A DNA stretch of 64,000 bases from positions 1,871,501 through 1,935,500 of the forward strand of contig NZ_JOMJ01000003.1 of the NCBI RefSeq assembly GCF_000711295.1, given 5' to 3'. Both the position numbers and the translations under genes were made by a program. Shown in pieces: positions 1,011-26,258 of the stretch (the stretch's first letter is position 1; each line of letters begins with the position of its first letter). This DNA is from Desulfohalovibrio reitneri (GTDB lineage Bacteria > Desulfobacterota > Desulfovibrionia > Desulfovibrionales > Desulfovibrionaceae). Under the pieces are notes generated by a model. That model was not told the origin of the DNA, searched no databases, and saw only the letters and a list, made by a program, of their open reading frames with translations.

Positions 1011-1172
1011 AGGGGAAGATTTCGCCTTCGGCGACGCGGCGACTGCGGAATTCGAACCCCCGGCGGCACCCCGCTCTGACTGTTTGTCTCCAGATACGTA
1101 GGACGCGAAATGCAGTTGTTGCTCTCCGGCTACCACGTGTCCGCACCACACCCCCGAGCGAAGCGAGCGATA
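1011..1172 (+). repeat. intergenic hairpin repeat, copy 1 (internally deleted)
   Basis: This copy has the repeat head (GATTTCGCCTTCGGCGAC, from 1018) and tail (GGACGCGAAAT, then CCCCCGAGCGAAGCGAGCG ending near 1170). The central part with the long GC hairpin and the TGCATGTGTGTTCGCGGG segment is missing. It lies upstream of nfo, and the IS3 element has landed just beyond its tail. The related copies are at 2435, 14430, 14695, 16843, 25776 and 26056. Confidence 0.7.
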
Positions 1173-1213
1173 TAAAAATTTCGGAAAAGGAGGGTGAGTG
1201 TACTGCCCCCGGT

Positions 1214-1990
1214 TTAGCAAGCCTTTTTTAAGAGAGTCCGCGAGTTGATCAGTTCCTGCTCGGTTGTCACCGGGGTTTTATACCCCAGCGCCGAGTGCAG
1301 GTAGCCTTGGTTGTATTCTTCGATCCAGGAGCCCAAGGCTTGGCAAAAGGCCGTCGGGCTACGCCATTCATTAATCCAGACCAGCTCTTCCTTCATGGTG
1401 CGCATGAAGCGCTCGGTGTCGGCATTGCCTTTTGGGTTGTTGTAGCTGGTGAAGGCGAGTTTGATGTCCATGACGCGGCAAGCCTTCATGAAGCTCGCCG
1501 AGGTCGGCTGGCAGCCGTTGTCGGCCATGAGATGAAGACCGCCGTCGCGCACGCCTTCGGGGAACTGCCTGCCGACAGCCGCGTTGAGCGCCGAGAGCCA
1601 ATGCCACGCCTTGGCCTGGTCGCCGGCGTAATGGCCGACGACCTTCTTGGTGCGCCAATCAAGCACAATGACCACGTACAGCCAGCCGTAGCCGTCAATC
1701 TTGATTTTGGTCATGTCGATACCCCACCACTCGTTGGGTCGCGTGGGCCGGGGCTTGACGCCGGTCGGCCTGCGTTTGGCCTTGAGTCGCAGGTTGGGCT
1801 TCACCGTGAGGTCATGCTCGCTCATGAGCCGGTAGACGCGATTTTTGCCGACGACTACGCCGTCCACGAAGCGCAGAAACGCCCAGACCCGACGGTATCC
1901 CCAGAACGGATGGTCGGCCTTGATGCCGCGAATGCGGGCCAGGAGGTCGGCGTTGCGCTCGGCGACCTTTGCATATGGTCCACGCTTCAT
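1214..1990 (-). CDS. IS3-family transposase, OrfB (DDE integrase domain)
   Basis: This is the catalytic half of the transposase. The N-terminal HTH_21-like part (FWGYRRVWAFLR) is followed by an rve integrase core with the DDE residues in GIDMTKI, LMADNGCQP and NADTERFMRT. Its start at 1990 lies just after the slip site. The active protein is most likely an OrfAB fusion made by -1 frameshifting at the A8 run (2004-2011), which would read LKKKRAVRMKRG into this frame. The 258 residues match the family length and there is no internal stop. Confidence 0.93.
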   Translation of the reverse strand: MKRGPYAKVAERNADLLARIRGIKADHPFWGYRRVWAFLRFVDGVVVGKNRVYRLMSEHDLTVKPNLRLKAKRRPTGVKPRPTRPNEWWGIDMTKIKIDGYGWLYVVIVLDWRTKKVVGHYAGDQAKAWHWLSALNAAVGRQFPEGVRDGGLHLMADNGCQPTSASFMKACRVMDIKLAFTSYNNPKGNADTERFMRTMKEELVWINEWRSPTAFCQALGSWIEEYNQGYLHSALGYKTPVTTEQELINSRTLLKKAC

Positions 1991-2259
1991 CCGAACGGCC
2001 CGCTTTTTTTTAGCTCAATGGTCAACTCACCGATCAGGCTTTTGAGCTTCATGTTCTCGCGCTCAAGCTTGGCCGTACGCTGTGCGCCGTGCTCGGTCTC
2101 GAACGCTTTGTGCGCCTGGGCAAGGAATTGATCGCGCCACTTGTAGTACTGGTTCTGCGAGATGGCGTACTCGGCGCACACTTCGCCCACGGGTCGTCCT
2201 CGAAGGCCTTCGAGGACGACCCGTGTCTTCTGCTCCGGGGTCCACTTCCGTCGCTTCAT
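1987..2259 (-). CDS. IS3-family transposase, OrfA (helix-turn-helix)
   Basis: A 90-residue protein with an N-terminal helix-turn-helix (KTRVVLEGLRGRPVGEVCAE, then YAISQNQYYKWRDQF) and a C-terminal coiled coil (KLERENMKLKSLIGELTIEL), the usual OrfA layout for binding the element's ends and dimerising. The chosen ATG has AGGAGGT six bases upstream. The frame is open further upstream but has no ribosome site there. The 3' end carries eight A residues on the coding strand just before the stop, the expected site of -1 slippage into OrfB. Confidence 0.92.
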   Translation of the reverse strand: MKRRKWTPEQKTRVVLEGLRGRPVGEVCAEYAISQNQYYKWRDQFLAQAHKAFETEHGAQRTAKLERENMKLKSLIGELTIELKKSGPFG

Positions 2260-2434
2260 GGCAAACCTCCTGCCTGTTGAGAAGCCACGGACTTCCACTT
2301 AAATCAAGGCTGTTTCAAACTGGGGGCAGGATATGAGGGCGTGTGAAAGGGAGGAAAAAACCGTTTTTAAAGGATTTTTCCTCCCTTTCCCACTGCCCTG
2401 AACTTCCACCCAGCCACCATCCGTTCCCAAGGAG

Positions 2435-2660
2435 GGAAATATTCCCCTTCGGCGACCAGGGGGGCTGCGCCCCCCCCTGGTCCCTGCGGCAAACTCATTT
2501 TCCATGTGTGTTCGCGGGATGGCGCGCGGTGGGAGCTTTGAAAGGGAGCACTCCGGCGAATAAGCGATTGTGGGGCTATTAGTCGGTAAAACATCGCCAA
2601 CCCGCTTGGTTAGCGATGTGTCGGACGCGGAATTGGCTTGTAGTCCTCCGGCTGCGCCGT
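2435..2660 (+). repeat. intergenic hairpin repeat, copy 2
   Basis: This fills most of the 330-base gap between the IS element and the TPR lipoprotein gene. Its head is CCCCTTCGGCGACCAGG. The long GC stem is CCAGGGGGG with CCCCCCCTGG. It also has the CATGTGTGTTCGCGGGATGG segment, GGGAGCACTCC, CGATTGTGGGGC and CGGTAAAAC. It ends within two bases of the lipoprotein stop codon. No gene is seen in the gap. The stretch 2338-2434 holds a run matching sequence beyond copy 5 (TTTCCCACTGCCCTGAA). Confidence 0.8.
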
Positions 2661-2661
2661 T

Positions 2662-3476
2662 TTACTTGGCTTGGTTTTCCTCCAACTCCTTGAGCTTGGT
2701 TTCGATGGCCTTGGGGTTGGGAAAGGAGTCTTGGATGGATCGCAGGAGTTCTCCGGCCTTTTCCGGATCGCCGGTCTGCAGGGCGGTTTCGGCCAGGAAG
2801 TAGACGGCCATGTCGTGTTCGCGCTGGGGGAGGGATTTGTCCTGGAGGAGGTCGGTGAGGATGTCTTTGGCTTTGGGCCAGTTTTCCTGGAAGGTGTAGG
2901 TCATGGCCAGGTCCACGTTGCATTGGGGGTGGCAGGACTTTGCGTCCTGAGATTCCACGCAGTCACGCAGGGTGTCCTGTGCCAGGTCGAAGCGTCCAGC
3001 CTGGAAGTGGGCCGAGGATATGCGCTCGTAGAGGTCGCAGGGGTTGGCCCCGTCCACGTCCAGGCGGGCGGCTTTCTGCCAGGCTTCCAGGGCTTCGTCC
3101 AGGTCGCCCCGTCGCAAGTGCAGATCGCCTGTCTTCAGGAGCACGGTGCGCGCGCGCTCGGGTTGCGGCCCGAACTCCAGGAGCATGGCTTCGAGGACCA
3201 GGAGGGCCTTTTCCTGGTCGTTTTTGACCACGTTGAGGATTTCCAGGATGCGTTTCCAGGCGTGCCAGCGGCGTTTTCCCTCCGGGTATTCCTGGATGTA
3301 GCGCTGGTAGAGGTTTTCCGCCTCCAGGTAGAGGCCCTGGGCGTAGGCGTCGTCGGCCTGCGTCAGAACGGGGTTCTTGGCCTCGTCCCGTGGGGAGCAG
3401 GCGCTTGCCAGAAGCAGCGCCAGGAGGAGGGCCGCGCCGACGGCGGCCGTGGGCGCGAGCCCCCTCCCGAGGCGCG

Positions 3477-3480
<4 letters not shown>
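2662..3480 (-). CDS. TPR-repeat lipoprotein
   Basis: A 272-residue predicted lipoprotein. The N-terminus has a basic start, a hydrophobic stretch and the lipobox LLASAC, with Cys near residue 28. The rest is helical repeats of tetratricopeptide type ([73 protein letters not shown]). Such proteins scaffold complexes at the outer or inner membrane. The partner is unknown. The start codon overlaps the gyrA stop (ATGA), so it is probably co-translated with gyrase. The function beyond protein binding is not visible. Confidence 0.85.
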
Positions 3481-5918
<2,438 letters not shown>

Positions 5919-5954: not shown

Positions 5955-9538
<3,584 letters not shown>

Positions 9539-9673: not shown

Positions 9674-10981
9674 TCATTCGGCTTCCGAGGAGAGACATTT
9701 TTGCTTCAGGGTTTTCAACACGTTTTTCGTTTCTTTGTTAACCTTCTGGATTTTCTTGATCTTATTCACGGCGTACAGGGCCGTGGAGTGGTCCTTGCCC
9801 CCGAAGATGCGGCCCAGAGCGGGATAGGAACTGCCCAGCATCTCCCGGCAGAGGAACATGGCCATCTGCCGCGCCCGCACGATTTCGTGGCGGCGCTGGG
9901 AGCCCTTGAGATCCTTGGGCTGCAGCCCGAAGTGCGAGGACACGATGTCGATGATCAGGTCCGGACTCAGGGCGGGCTGCGGTTTCTCCTCGGTGTGGGA
10001 GAGGACGTGCTGGAAGTCCTTGGGCCCGATGTCCTTGTTGACCAGCTCCTTGTAGGCGAACAGCTTCAGCAGGATGCCCTGCAGGTAGCGGAAGTCGCGG
10101 AAGCGCTGGGCCAGGATGAGGACCTGTTCCTTGTCCAGGGTTATCTTCTTCTGCCGGCACTGGTTCTGGATGAAGCGCACCCGCACTTCCAGGTCCGGCT
10201 GCTTGAGGTTGACGATGAGTCCCCACTCCAGCCGCGACTTGAGGGTGGGGTTGAGGAACTCGTAGGTGGTCACGCGATCGGCGCAGCCGAAGACCATCTG
10301 CTTTTTCTGGTCGTGAAAGGCGTTGAAGAGGATGATGAGTTCCTGCTGCAGATTGGGGCTGTGCTGGATGAGCTGGAAGTCGTCCAGCACCAGCACCTGG
10401 TAGGCGGAAAGCTGCCGCCGGGCGGAAAAGGAGTCGTCCTGCTTGAACAGGGCGGCCAGATCCTCCACCGTGCCGAAGTAGATGGACTGCGGATCGGTGC
10501 GCCGGGCTATCTCGTTGGCTATGGCCTTGAGCAGGTGGGTCTTGCCGGAGCCGTGCTCCCCGCAGACCACGAACGGGTTGAAGACCACGCTGTCCTGTTT
10601 GGCCACCTCCCTGGCCGAGGCCAGGGGGAAGTAGTTCTTCTTGTTTATCAGGAAGGAGTCGAAGGTGAACTGGTTGCCGAAGGGGAAATCCAGCGACTTG
10701 ACCCGCTCTTTCCCGGCTGTGGAGGCGGTTTCCGACGTGCCCGCGCCGTGGCCGTTGTGGCCGTAGCTGATGATGGAGCCCGGGCCGAAGAAGCCGTTCA
10801 TCTGCTCCTCGAACCGGTCCTGCACGTGCTGGGCGAACCAAGAGGAGAAAAAAGCGTGGGGAAAGCCCACGTCGAGCCGTTTCTCGTCCGGGTCGTAGCG
10901 CACGTCCAGCGGATCGAACCACCGCTTCAGTTCCTGGTCGGAAAAGGACTGTTCCAGATGGGTGCGGAGCGAGGTTTTCAC
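9674..10981 (-). CDS. dnaA: chromosomal replication initiator protein DnaA
   Basis: The AAA+ initiator that binds DnaA boxes and melts the origin. Domain I is short (LRTHLEQSFSDQELKRWFDPL), then a linker, the AAA+ core with Walker A GEHGSGKTHLLKAI and Walker B VLVLDDFQLI, and a C-terminal helix-turn-helix with the family signature around SYPALGRIFGGKDHSTAL. I chose a GTG start at 10981, giving 435 residues. The frame continues open far upstream on the opposite strand of another gene and has no nearby ATG. No clear ribosome site is seen, so the exact start is uncertain. Confidence 0.93.
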   Translation of the reverse strand: MKTSLRTHLEQSFSDQELKRWFDPLDVRYDPDEKRLDVGFPHAFFSSWFAQHVQDRFEEQMNGFFGPGSIISYGHNGHGAGTSETASTAGKERVKSLDFPFGNQFTFDSFLINKKNYFPLASAREVAKQDSVVFNPFVVCGEHGSGKTHLLKAIANEIARRTDPQSIYFGTVEDLAALFKQDDSFSARRQLSAYQVLVLDDFQLIQHSPNLQQELIILFNAFHDQKKQMVFGCADRVTTYEFLNPTLKSRLEWGLIVNLKQPDLEVRVRFIQNQCRQKKITLDKEQVLILAQRFRDFRYLQGILLKLFAYKELVNKDIGPKDFQHVLSHTEEKPQPALSPDLIIDIVSSHFGLQPKDLKGSQRRHEIVRARQMAMFLCREMLGSSYPALGRIFGGKDHSTALYAVNKIKKIQKVNKETKNVLKTLKQKCLSSEAE

Positions 10982-11311
10982 GCTGTCCGGGGTGTTGTGG
11001 TCTGTTGCGGATTGCGGCACTTCGGACACCGGTCGCGGGCTTGGCCGGGCTGATTTTCCCCCCTCGCGGCCACCCCGTTTGAATTCGTCCCCGTATAGCG
11101 AAAATACAGGCTTTCGCCAAGGTTTTTCTGCCCCGGAAGCCCTGGTTCTCAACAGGTTGTCCACCGCTTTGGTGGAGTTTCCCCAGGACTTGGGAAAAAG
11201 GTTGTATTTTCGCGGTAGAGATACGGCGCGGTTCTTCCGCGGCCTCCCGGTTGCCATCGGTACACGCTTTGGGCATCCTTCCGGGGCCCCGATCGGGACC
11301 AAGGAGCAGAC
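10982..11311. other. dnaA upstream region, possible oriC
   Basis: This 330-base gene-free gap lies between divergent dnaA and the DUF39 gene. It holds TTGTCCACC near 11157, one mismatch from a DnaA-box variant, and AT-richer patches around 11090-11130 and 11195-11220. Origins commonly lie next to dnaA. No perfect TTATCCACA box or box cluster was seen by eye, so this remains a location-based guess. It must also contain the dnaA and DUF39 promoters. Confidence 0.35.
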
Positions 11312-14429: not shown

Positions 14430-14687
14430 GGGAAGATTTCGCCTTCGGCGACCAGGGGGCTGCGCGCCCCCTGGACCCTGCGGCAAAGTAACTTTGCATG
14501 TGTAACGCGGGTTGGGGCGTGTCAGGTGAAAGCCGAGGGAGTAACTCGGCGCAATGGACGGCTATGTGGCTAGTTAACCCGATAAAACCGGATCCCGGTC
14601 GTCTGGCTTCACAGACGCAGGTCACGAAATTGGACACTAGTCCCCGTCTGTCTTGTTCCTCGCATGACGCCCCGAGCGAAGCGAGCT
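14430..14687 (+). repeat. intergenic hairpin repeat, copy 3 (tandem with copy 4)
   Basis: A full-length copy starting 14 bases after the DUF362 stop. In order it has hairpin CGCCTTCGGCG, stem CCAGGGGG (14452-14459) with CCCCCTGG (14467-14474), and palindrome GCAAAGTAACTTTGC (14483-14497). GGGAGTAACTC, GATAAAACC, CACGAAATTGG and the tail CCCCGAGCGAAGCGAGC follow. Copies 3 and 4 fill the whole 500-base gap to the next gene. No coding frame of quality is seen. Confidence 0.85.
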
Positions 14688-14694
14688 TCTGAGA

Positions 14695-14873
14695 AAGAAA
14701 AGCATTTCGCCTTCGGCGACCAGGGGGCTGCGAGCCCCCTGAATCCTGCGGCAAACTCACTTTGCATGTGTGTTCGCGGGATGGCGCGCGGTGGGATCGT
14801 GAACGGGGAGTACCCCGGCGTATGGGCGATTGTGGGGCCAGTTTACACGGTAAAACCCTGCCCGGCTTCTTCT
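14695..14873 (+). repeat. intergenic hairpin repeat, copy 4 (tail missing)
   Basis: It follows copy 3 directly in the same orientation. It has CGCCTTCGGCGACCAGG, stem CCAGGGGG with CCCCCTG, AAACTCACTTTGCATGTGTG, TTCGCGGGATGGCGCGCGG, GGGAGTACCCCGGCG, CGATTGTGGGGC and CGGTAAAACCC. The sequence then departs from the family before the GGACGCGAAATT tail, 47 bases ahead of the MerR-type gene. Confidence 0.85.
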
Positions 14874-14919: not shown

Positions 14920-15738
14920 ATGGCGGATGGCGTGTATCTCATATCCGAGCTGGCGGAGCTTGCCGGGCTGGCGGAGAACACGGCGCGGCGGTACGCTCGT
15001 CTGTTCGACGGCCATTTTTCCGGCAGGCAGTCCGGCCGCGTGACCAGATATCCCGCGGAGGACGCCGAGCTTCTGGCTTGCATCGCGTCCTGGTACAAGG
15101 AGGGGTTGTCCACGCCCGAGGTGGAGGAGAAGCTGCGGTCGCGCGGCGGGACAGGTCGTCCGGTCGGCGATGTGGACAGGCGCCTGGACGAGGTGCTGGC
15201 CGAGCTGGCCGCCCAGGCGGGGGAAATGGAGGATCTGCGGGCGGAACTGCGCCGGGAGCGGGCCCTCCGCGAGCGGGAAACGACCTCCCTGCGCGGGGAG
15301 ATCGAGCGGCTCCGGTCAAGCAAGCAGGAACTGCGGCGCCGTTTGGGCACGCTGGCCAACGCCGTGGGGCCGTCCGACGCCTTCCTCTGCCTGCCCCTGG
15401 TTTTTCAGTCCGAAGAGGAGGAGTTTCTCGGGGTTTCTGTGCGGGGCAAGAAGCATTTCACCCTTACCGACTTCGTGGACCTGGTGCACCGCAACGGCCG
15501 CTCCGACCGCACCCTGGCTCTGGGCTGGGAAGGCGGGCGCGCGGGCTGGACCCTGCACATCACCGAGTACCCCGGCCGTCCCATCCTGGAGAAGCACCAC
15601 CACGTGCGTGTCAGCCGCCGCCAGACACCCAAGGGCAACACCGTGGCCCTCATCGAGGAATTGAAGGTGAACGGCAGGCTGATGCCGGTGATCTTCCTGT
15701 ACGAACTGTTCAAGCAGATTAGTCGCGAAGGCTGGTGA
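14920..15738 (+). CDS. MerR-type HTH protein with coiled coil
   Basis: A 272-residue predicted DNA-binding protein. Residues 5-70 form a MerR-like winged helix (YLISELAELAGLAENTARRY, then a YPAEDAELL helix). Residues 80-150 are a charged coiled coil (RRLDEVLAELAAQAGEMEDL, RAELRRERALRERETTSL). The C-terminal 110 residues are a soluble domain I do not recognise (DAFLCLPLVFQSEEEEFLGV). GGAG lies eight bases before the ATG. It stands alone between repeat copies and convergent rlmN. The ligand and targets are unknown. Confidence 0.78.
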   Translation: MADGVYLISELAELAGLAENTARRYARLFDGHFSGRQSGRVTRYPAEDAELLACIASWYKEGLSTPEVEEKLRSRGGTGRPVGDVDRRLDEVLAELAAQAGEMEDLRAELRRERALRERETTSLRGEIERLRSSKQELRRRLGTLANAVGPSDAFLCLPLVFQSEEEEFLGVSVRGKKHFTLTDFVDLVHRNGRSDRTLALGWEGGRAGWTLHITEYPGRPILEKHHHVRVSRRQTPKGNTVALIEELKVNGRLMPVIFLYELFKQISREGW

Positions 15739-16842: not shown

Positions 16843-17100
16843 AAGGATTTCGCCTTCGGCGACCAGGGCCCGCTCGGCCCTGGACCCGAGGCAAACACGC
16901 TTTGCATGTGTGTTCGCGGGTTGGCGCGCAGTGGAATCGCGCGAAGGGAGCACTCCGGCGTACCCGCGATTGCTGGGCAATCTCTCCCGGCAAAAACCTG
17001 CCCTGCCATCCCGCTTCAGATGCGTTGGACGCGAAATTGAGATGTTATCCCGCGGCTGCCACCCGCCAGTACCACGCCCCCGAGCGGAGCGAGCGGCAAA
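16843..17100 (+). repeat. intergenic hairpin repeat, copy 5
   Basis: A full copy in the 460-base gap between rlmN and the cupin gene. The long stem differs from copies 3 and 4, being CCAGGGCC (16863-16870) with GGCCCTGG (16876-16883), so both arms changed together. TTTGCATGTGTGTTCGCGGG, GGGAGCACTCCGGCG, CGATTGCTGGGC, GGACGCGAAATTG and the CCCCCGAGCGGAGCGAGCG tail are present. The remaining 175 bases hold no gene and presumably carry the cupin and rlmN promoters. Confidence 0.85.
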
Positions 17101-17276
17101 GGGTTTTTCCTTCCTCTCCCACTGCCCTGAATCGCCATCCCCGCCAACCACCTTCCATTCCCGTCGATTCCCGAATACCATGTTGGCCCCCAAGGCGTTA
17201 GGAAGTGTTTAACCCAAACACCAACTTTCCTCATCCATGAATCCGCGCTACTTCGGTTCGCTTCAGGAGGTGTATC

Positions 17277-25557: not shown

Positions 25558-25775
25558 GGGTGTTCAAAATCTAAACACAAAGGTTCTTTTTGGCAACGTG
25601 GGTTTCGCCTTGTCACATAATGAAAAAATGAGAAGCATGCGACGGTGGAGAAAAGGGAATGGCAGGAATGGAAGACGGTTGGCGGGAGCGGGGGCTCAGG
25701 GCATTGGGTGCGGAAGGGAATCACTTTTCCAAAAGTGGTTCCCTTCCGCCCCTAAGCATCCTCCATCCTTCCACA

Positions 25776-26040
25776 AAAATTCTTATCACTCGTTTCGCTT
25801 GGGGGCGTGGTGCTAATGGCTGGGAGCCGGGAGACCACAGCCCAATTCCGCGCCCCGCGCATCTGAAGCCAGACGGCCGAGGCCGGGTTTTACCGGGTAT
25901 TTGGGTTCCACAATCGCCGGTTCGCCGGAGTACTCCCGCGCATTTCCCCTGACGCGCCTCATCGCGCGAACACACATGCAAGGTAAGTTTGCCGCAGGGT
26001 CCAGGGGGCGCGCAGCCCCCTGGTCGCCGGAGGCGAAACG
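25776..26040 (-). repeat. intergenic hairpin repeat, copy 6 (tandem with copy 7)
   Basis: A full copy in reverse orientation. On the minus strand the head hairpin is CGCCTCCGGCG, with a loop change that keeps the stem. The long stem is CCAGGGGG with CCCCCTGG, and the AACACACATGCAA block, CGGTAAAACCC and the CCCCCAAGCGAAACGAGTG tail are seen. The 218 bases before it (25558-25775) hold no gene, only sequence similar to that beyond copy 5. Confidence 0.85.
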
Positions 26041-26055
26041 CTTAGTAGAAATAGC

Positions 26056-26258
26056 AGCCCATTCCCGCGTCCAACGCATGGGTAGCCAAACGACCAGGGC
26101 AAGGTTTTACCGCCTGAGATAGCCCCGCAATGGCAGGTACGCCGGAGCGCTCCCTTTCCCGCAAATCGTCTCCCTCAATCCCGCGTTACACATGCAAAGT
26201 TACTTTGCCTCGGGTCCAGGGCCGAGCAGGCCCTGGTCGCCCGAAGGGCGAAATCTTC
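26056..26258 (-). repeat. intergenic hairpin repeat, copy 7
   Basis: A reverse-orientation copy directly after copy 6. The head stem is CGCCC-TTC-GGGCG, one pair longer than in other copies. The long stem is CCAGGGCC with GGCCCTGG, as in copy 5. GGCAAAGTAACTTTGC is present. The 170 bases between it and uvrA hold no gene and should contain the uvrA promoter. Confidence 0.85.

Follow-up and report, generated by a model that had tools for sequence, protein, structure and literature searches.

Introduction

The spread of REP-like repeats is commonly attributed to RAYT transposases, and the BIMEs have roles as gyrase or nucleoid-protein binding sites. The REP/REPIN systems have been linked to a RAYT transposase (PMC3116915, PMC2817692, PMC3733652), and REPINs have been characterised as doublets of REPs in inverted orientation which are associated with these transposases, and which show compensatory changes and occur in tandem clusters (PMC3116915). 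The insertion of IS elements into REPs is also already known (PMC1525189). In the main text of a survey of stem-loop families in 40 genomes the word Desulfovibrio does not occur (PMC2267715), and RepRanger, in the passages searched, names Desulfotalea and Thermodesulfovibrio and no Desulfovibrio (PMC12306157).

In our study, a repeat family of Desulfohalovibrio reitneri, considerably longer than REP units, has been followed from seven copies to the whole genome and to related genomes. The initial annotation had called the family undescribed-looking, and this has held as far as it was tested: the comparison with Rfam which it had suggested gave no match above the gathering score in the window (the whole stretch of 64,000 nucleotides that was analysed), and no description of the repeat was found in searches of the open-access literature.

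Results

Copies in the window

All seven copies named at the outset were found at their places with a 380-position profile, which was built from 21 copies, and the motifs follow the reported order as far as each copy reaches. The features are as follows, with profile positions given as model positions.

1011..1200, plus strand: left piece of copy 1, with the head hairpin followed, after an internal deletion, by model positions 114 onwards; interrupted by an IS (nhmmer places model 114-317 at 1026-1230, the end of the match running into the IS)
1200..2330 (borders approximate), minus strand: presumed IS3-type IS inside copy 1; predicted ORFs 1214-1990 and 1987-2190 on the minus strand, the first with rve and HTH_21 domains
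2321..2428, plus strand: copy 1, right piece; model 268-380; right hairpin and right end
2438..2666, plus strand: copy 2; model 6-225; without the right part
14433..14687, plus strand: copy 3; model 1-257; upstream partner of a tandem pair, without the right part
14702..14865, plus strand: copy 4; model 2-166; downstream partner of this tandem pair, truncated before a MerR-type gene at 14920
16844..17161, plus strand: copy 5; model 1-269 and 316-379; retains both ends, right hairpin partly deleted
26048..26257, minus strand: copy 6; model 1-213; upstream partner of a tandem pair
25665..26042, minus strand: copy 7; model 3-379; the sole full-length copy of the window
25702..25778, minus strand: right hairpin of copy 7 with its flank; a row of the covariation alignment A4
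3477-5918, 5955-8372, 8375-9526 and 9674-11029, minus strand: gyrA, gyrB, dnaN and dnaA; context, outside the repeat

Most of these copies are truncated, and an eighth copy starts 45 bases past the window end. The length of up to 260 bp given in the initial annotation was too short, as full copies measure about 380 bp and the right third, with its hairpin of 20-25 bp, had been missed. Both of the head-to-tail pairs are present, and tandem neighbours were found to be common in the whole genome (17 of 91 sites with more than one entry). The position of the element only between genes is nearly correct, with one of 109 copy entries overlapping a predicted gene by more than 20 nt. The statement that no transposase accompanies the repeat has to be qualified for copy 1, which is split by an IS with an rve/HTH_21 ORF; this IS, however, inserts into the repeat and nothing suggests that the two share their ends.

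Anatomy of the element

The complete element of about 380 bp consists of a left module, a middle part and a right module. The left module (about 125 bp) contains a CGCC..GGCG hairpin, a CCAGGG..CCCTGG stem and a GCAAA..TTTGC palindrome. Past CGAGCGAAGCGAGCG, the element runs through a long hairpin to ...GCCAGCCACCWTCCATTCCC, the order here being a purine-rich run, the hairpin of 20-25 bp and the right end GCCCTGAAC..CCCCGCCAGCCACCWTCCATTCCC; the right module is made up of this hairpin and the terminus ...CCATTCCC. In this genome the consensus ends showed no inverted similarity, with a score of 16 where shuffles averaged 17.5.

Copy number, truncation and tandem arrays

The core pattern GGCAAANTNNNTTTGCATGTGT, at up to three mismatches, gave 97 matches in the genome (45 forward, 52 reverse) and the reversed pattern gave one, so that many copies are present outside the window. 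The seven copies of the window are members of a single family that numbers about 100 in the genome. This count rests on the core-pattern search, which detects a copy only by its left palindrome, and right-only copies may be more numerous than it shows. In the 20 roughly evenly spaced stretches of 20 kb, every copy has the left part, and the sole separate right-part entry is an IS-split copy.

The profile detected 118 entries in about 662 kb of examined stretches, and 109 of them, at 91 sites, contain the left part. Full length, from model position 1-4 to 376 or beyond, is reached by 28 entries. The left-containing entries end before position 285 in 61 cases, at 285-344 in 14 cases, several of which stop at an IS, and at 345 or beyond in 34 cases. 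An internal deletion, with the right end kept slightly further on, was seen in 11 of 70 profile-truncated entries against 1 of 210 control stretches, the lone control match being the right piece of a neighbouring copy. In most of the other truncated entries the left end alone remains, or the entry runs into an IS.

Head-to-tail junctions within 80 nt were found at 17 distinct places. The upstream copy is without an intact right hairpin at 16 of these, copy 1/copy 2 of the window being the exception, and some of these 16 upstream copies have kept the right-end motif after an internal deletion. At contig C3 1863087-1863955 (L111), three tandem copies with a core spacing of exactly 246 bp are alike where compared, which suggests a recent local duplication. 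For the dispersed copies, the best full-length matches were 79-81% identical and shorter pieces reached 85% (two queries in own-genome DNA similarity searches, with 40 candidates scored for each), and hence these two queries give no sign of recent movement. At contig C3 2386768-2387666 (L128), a PsiE-family gene lies between the left module and the right end of one apparent copy.

Gene context

Genes were called with our own codon-usage script, and the context table counts entries, so that tandem copies are counted separately. The neighbours of 102 two-gene entries are convergent in 44 cases, co-directional with the left end at the gene end in 30, co-directional in the opposite sense in 15 and divergent in 13. 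The convergent setting is enriched in comparison to the gene pairs of the sampled stretches and the window (44/102 entries against 33/239 pairs; Fisher p 1.3e-8), and between co-directional neighbours the left end lies more commonly at the gene end (p 0.036). Among the 78 entries in which the left gene is read towards the element, 30 have their left end no more than 31 nt beyond the stop codon. Many copies, judged by eye and uncounted, follow the terminator of their upstream gene or are flanked by a convergent pair of terminators. Purines make up 79% of the 20 nt that precede the left end (n=87); past gene ends that lack an element the share is 48% (n=200). Before the second copies of tandem pairs the purine share is 58% (n=13), and the tract therefore looks like a feature of the site or an outer border rather than a part of each unit.

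Insertion sequences in the repeats

The IS with rve and HTH_21 domains, which we take to be of the IS3 type, has 19 copies in the genome when counted by its left end. At least 11 of the 19 lie inside the element or within 60 bp of it, 7 lie outside the examined stretches and 1 just beyond 60 bp; for comparison, the repeat elements make up, by a rough estimate, about 1% of the genome. This IS (window 1200-2330 and 18 further places) thus has a strong preference for the repeats. A second IS type, presumably IS5-like, splits the GCAAA..TTTGC palindrome mid-way in two other copies.

Position on the chromosome

The sites are concentrated in contig C3 1.131-2.531 Mb round dnaA, where 79 of 91 lie in 41% of the genome (p 2.7e-19); 3 others are in C3 0-1.131 Mb and 9 on C4. 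The genes gyrA, gyrB, dnaN and dnaA stand in a row in the window and probably mark the replication-origin region. GC skew in the sampled stretches changes from minus to plus near the window and turns back near 1.04 Mb, where a dif-like sequence was also found at two mismatches from the consensus; at up to three mismatches the search gave 3 matches against 1 in the control. With the contig order assumed, the skew and the dif-like site point to strongly unequal replichores (about 0.84 and 2.5 Mb). Besides the dnaA of the window, a second gene with a DnaA C-terminal domain was seen at C3 477618 (479-aa open frame).

Covariation of the palindromes

The left-module palindromes are conserved mainly as sequence. 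In 30 long-stem copies, 4 pairs with two-sided change were counted against a shuffle mean of 2.2 (49 of 500 shuffles as high), and the covariation score was 0.033 against 0.031 (146 of 500 as high); the share of paired cells, 91.1% against 90.5% (11 of 500 as high), was the sole measure slightly above the shuffles. The sixth pair of GCAAA..TTTGC, over 102 copies, is G-C in 44, C-G in 10, A-T in 8 and mismatched in 40.

The arms of the right hairpin co-vary strongly. Alignment A4 contains 29 of 32 copies, and the destroyed or replaced hairpins of L107, L002 and L004 were left out, which favours pairing somewhat; in it 94.4% of cells are paired against 82.9% in shuffles. Double changes were found in 15 pairs and 84 cells (10.3 and 26.5 when shuffled), and the covariation score was reached by none of 500 shuffles and by no slid partner. 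The further pair types (26 against 24.2) were not above the shuffles.

Relatives and wider distribution

The whole element gave no match beyond about 80 of 391 bases in 98 related genomes, with 7 candidates scored per genome and no other member of the genus among them, and the partial matches in 11 relatives correspond to the right hairpin, the head or coding DNA. Plasmids and phages gave no match to the element by blastn. The core pattern had no match in a genome-contig collection, which may omit the records of the own genome. One core match in a viral contig was dismissed as chance-like, since the element is absent there and a search with an extended core pattern came up empty.

A covariance model of the left module matched 39 of 198 other genomes of the family at E 0.01 or better, the best at 1e-5 (E-values rough), whereas at home the same model reached E 2e-27 to 2e-33 for the 17 candidates scored. 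The matches in relatives are weak. Several of those inspected have the common head GCCTCCGGCGGCC, or a sequence near it, with a hairpin and GGACCC, and others resemble coding DNA or different GC-rich hairpins. Of 119 Desulfovibrionaceae genomes, 74, with the own genome among them, contain the head pattern GCCTYCGGCGRCCARGGGG when one mismatch is allowed, against 3 control matches over all 119; six genomes have more than 100 copies, up to 236 per genome. In the own genome only 16 copies fit GCCTYCGGCGRCCARGGGG, because most have a longer first hairpin, and kinship with the elements of relatives therefore rests on short motifs and architecture.

The exact head of 22 bases also reaches into other phyla: it was found in 33 stretches of named genomes, including Desulfovibrionaceae, Aminicenantes, Acidobacteriota, Arboricoccus pini and a myxococcote. 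A small number of the stretches, in which the second stem arm is missing, may be coding sequence or chance matches. At 6 of 19 model-found loci, at L059 (363 bp) and at 4 of 33 exact-head loci, the head is followed within 700 bp by an inverted one, a possible two-ended form. Similar right hairpins stand alone in one relative (L047).

In Arboricoccus pini, a repeat of about 985 bp or slightly more was observed, 93-97% identical where aligned (L161 5244-6232, reverse complement; L157, L168, L170, L174, L176, L179, L180). It has the same palindromic head on its left and, in L161, a related inverted palindrome near the right end, and it encloses an ORF of about 255 aa with no Pfam or NCBIfam match above the cut-off. 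This repeat might be a new kind of mobile element. Its ORF was considered as the missing transposase and rejected, as it had no match in the own genome and one weak match, in G050, without such palindromes around it.

Discussion

The repeats are probably a lineage-specific family of long, modular, extragenic palindromic elements of the REP/BIME/BOX-like kind, which was once mobile and is now mostly static. The copy number, extragenic position, palindromes, tandem clusters and targeting by IS elements led us to the REP/BIME-type reading, and we infer past dispersal from the scatter of copies at many different gene ends. The element would have spread as non-autonomous DNA with its hairpins recognised in trans. 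The acting enzyme would be other than a RAYT-type Y1 transposase, and may have been lost from the genome or be as yet unrecognised; no transposase gene was seen between the two ends of one copy, IS insertions aside. Copies would have persisted at places where insertions are hardly harmful, behind stop codons and terminators, and the present state would then reflect divergence in place, loss of right-hand parts, local tandem duplication and uptake of IS elements. The origin-centred distribution counts against this explanation, as it is not predicted by random insertion.

The initial annotation had left the choice between a non-autonomous element and a structured RNA, and the former appears to be the better option. 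A structured RNA or mRNA 3'-end element of the upstream gene, with hairpins that block decay or transcription, or a processed sRNA, would fit well with left ends that closely follow stop codons in 30 of 78 cases, with the 30 to 15 bias of co-directional entries (p 0.036, with tandem copies counted separately) and with the strong covariation of the right hairpin. The left module, on the other hand, gives it no support, as its 4 doubly changed pairs against 2.2 were reached by 49 of 500 shuffles. Moreover, RNAalifold on 59 aligned copies found almost no consensus fold, the two stem-length forms being misaligned there. Many copies lie, by eye, behind or between terminators, and 61 of 109 entries stop before the right hairpin. 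The cells with G.U (20) and with A.C (13) in this hairpin carry no clear strand signal and do not distinguish RNA from DNA. Rfam had no match in the window, and a permissive search with one copy gave 48 matches, all sub-cut-off and most of them to miRNA models on the long hairpin. An RNA element is thus considered unlikely.

The concentration round dnaA, with 79 of 91 sites in 41% of the genome, could be explained if the repeats served a system that organises the chromosome in its origin half, for example as gyrase or nucleoid-protein binding sites. The spacer share is similar in the two parts of C3, with 13.3% in the copy-rich part and 12.4% in C3 0-1.14 Mb; however, spacer is scarcer on C4 (7.8%). 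Further, the copy density drops as a step and not as a gradient, the orientation is independent of the fork (43/79, p 0.5) and four stretches of 20 kb sampled at 2.08-2.53 Mb contain zero copies. As the replichores are unequal by skew, with the contig order assumed, the concentration in the origin half may be a matter of genome history, and we regard such binding sites as quite improbable. The fossils of an extinct classical insertion sequence, that is MITEs formed by internal deletion of a transposon, would explain the discrete right end and the internal-deletion forms with both ends. Yet the ends are without inverted similarity (16 against 17.5), no longer form with its own transposase occurs among the examined loci and left-only copies are common, which makes this origin very improbable. 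A wider reading, in which the family is a branch of an unnamed REP-like superfamily (head GCCTYCGGCGRCC, hairpin and GGACCC) whose members occur in Desulfovibrionaceae and in some other phyla, and which owes its dispersal to a non-RAYT enzyme and is here largely confined to the origin half, can be put forward tentatively, as a possibility on the doubtful side.

A palindromic repeat class that is family-wide and has an elaborate member in a genome in which no RAYT was found calls for another dispersal route. The head motif, the right hairpin and the IS landing site are sequence handles for finding this route.

Comparison with known repeat systems

The palindromic family described here shares with REP/REPIN systems, as far as these are described in the source (PMC3116915), its many extragenic palindromic copies, compensatory hairpin changes, tandem clusters and non-coding nature. 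It differs from them in the lack of a Y1_Tnp match in the genome, in having no inverted doublet here and in its length of about 380 bp against 20-40 bp for a REP. The search for RAYT (Y1_Tnp, PF01797) gave 0 matches in the own genome, whose assembly is 96.9% complete, while 5 of 14 control genomes were positive. Reverse transcriptase (PF00078), sought for a SINE-like or group II intron-derived origin, likewise gave 0 matches in the own genome and was found in 3 of 14 control genomes. Like MITEs, the repeats are small, non-coding and dispersed and have internal-deletion forms, but they are without a terminal inverted repeat in this genome. Because there is no Y1_Tnp match, no reverse transcriptase match and no inverted end similarity, the family has been classed neither as REPIN nor as MITE.

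The entry of IS elements into the repeat resembles that into REPs, which serve as IS targets in a case with a different repeat (PMC1525189). The IS families probably differ as well. The modular build resembles that of the BOX elements of Streptococcus, small dispersed repeats of variable length which are built from a left and a right module with an optional middle between them (PMC3049150). No sequence kinship is claimed with BOX; host and element are GC-rich here and no repeated array of the boxB type was seen. The 28 full entries and the 11 of 70 truncated entries with both ends fit a BOX-like plan of fixed ends and an optional middle; most other truncated entries are left-only or run into an IS.
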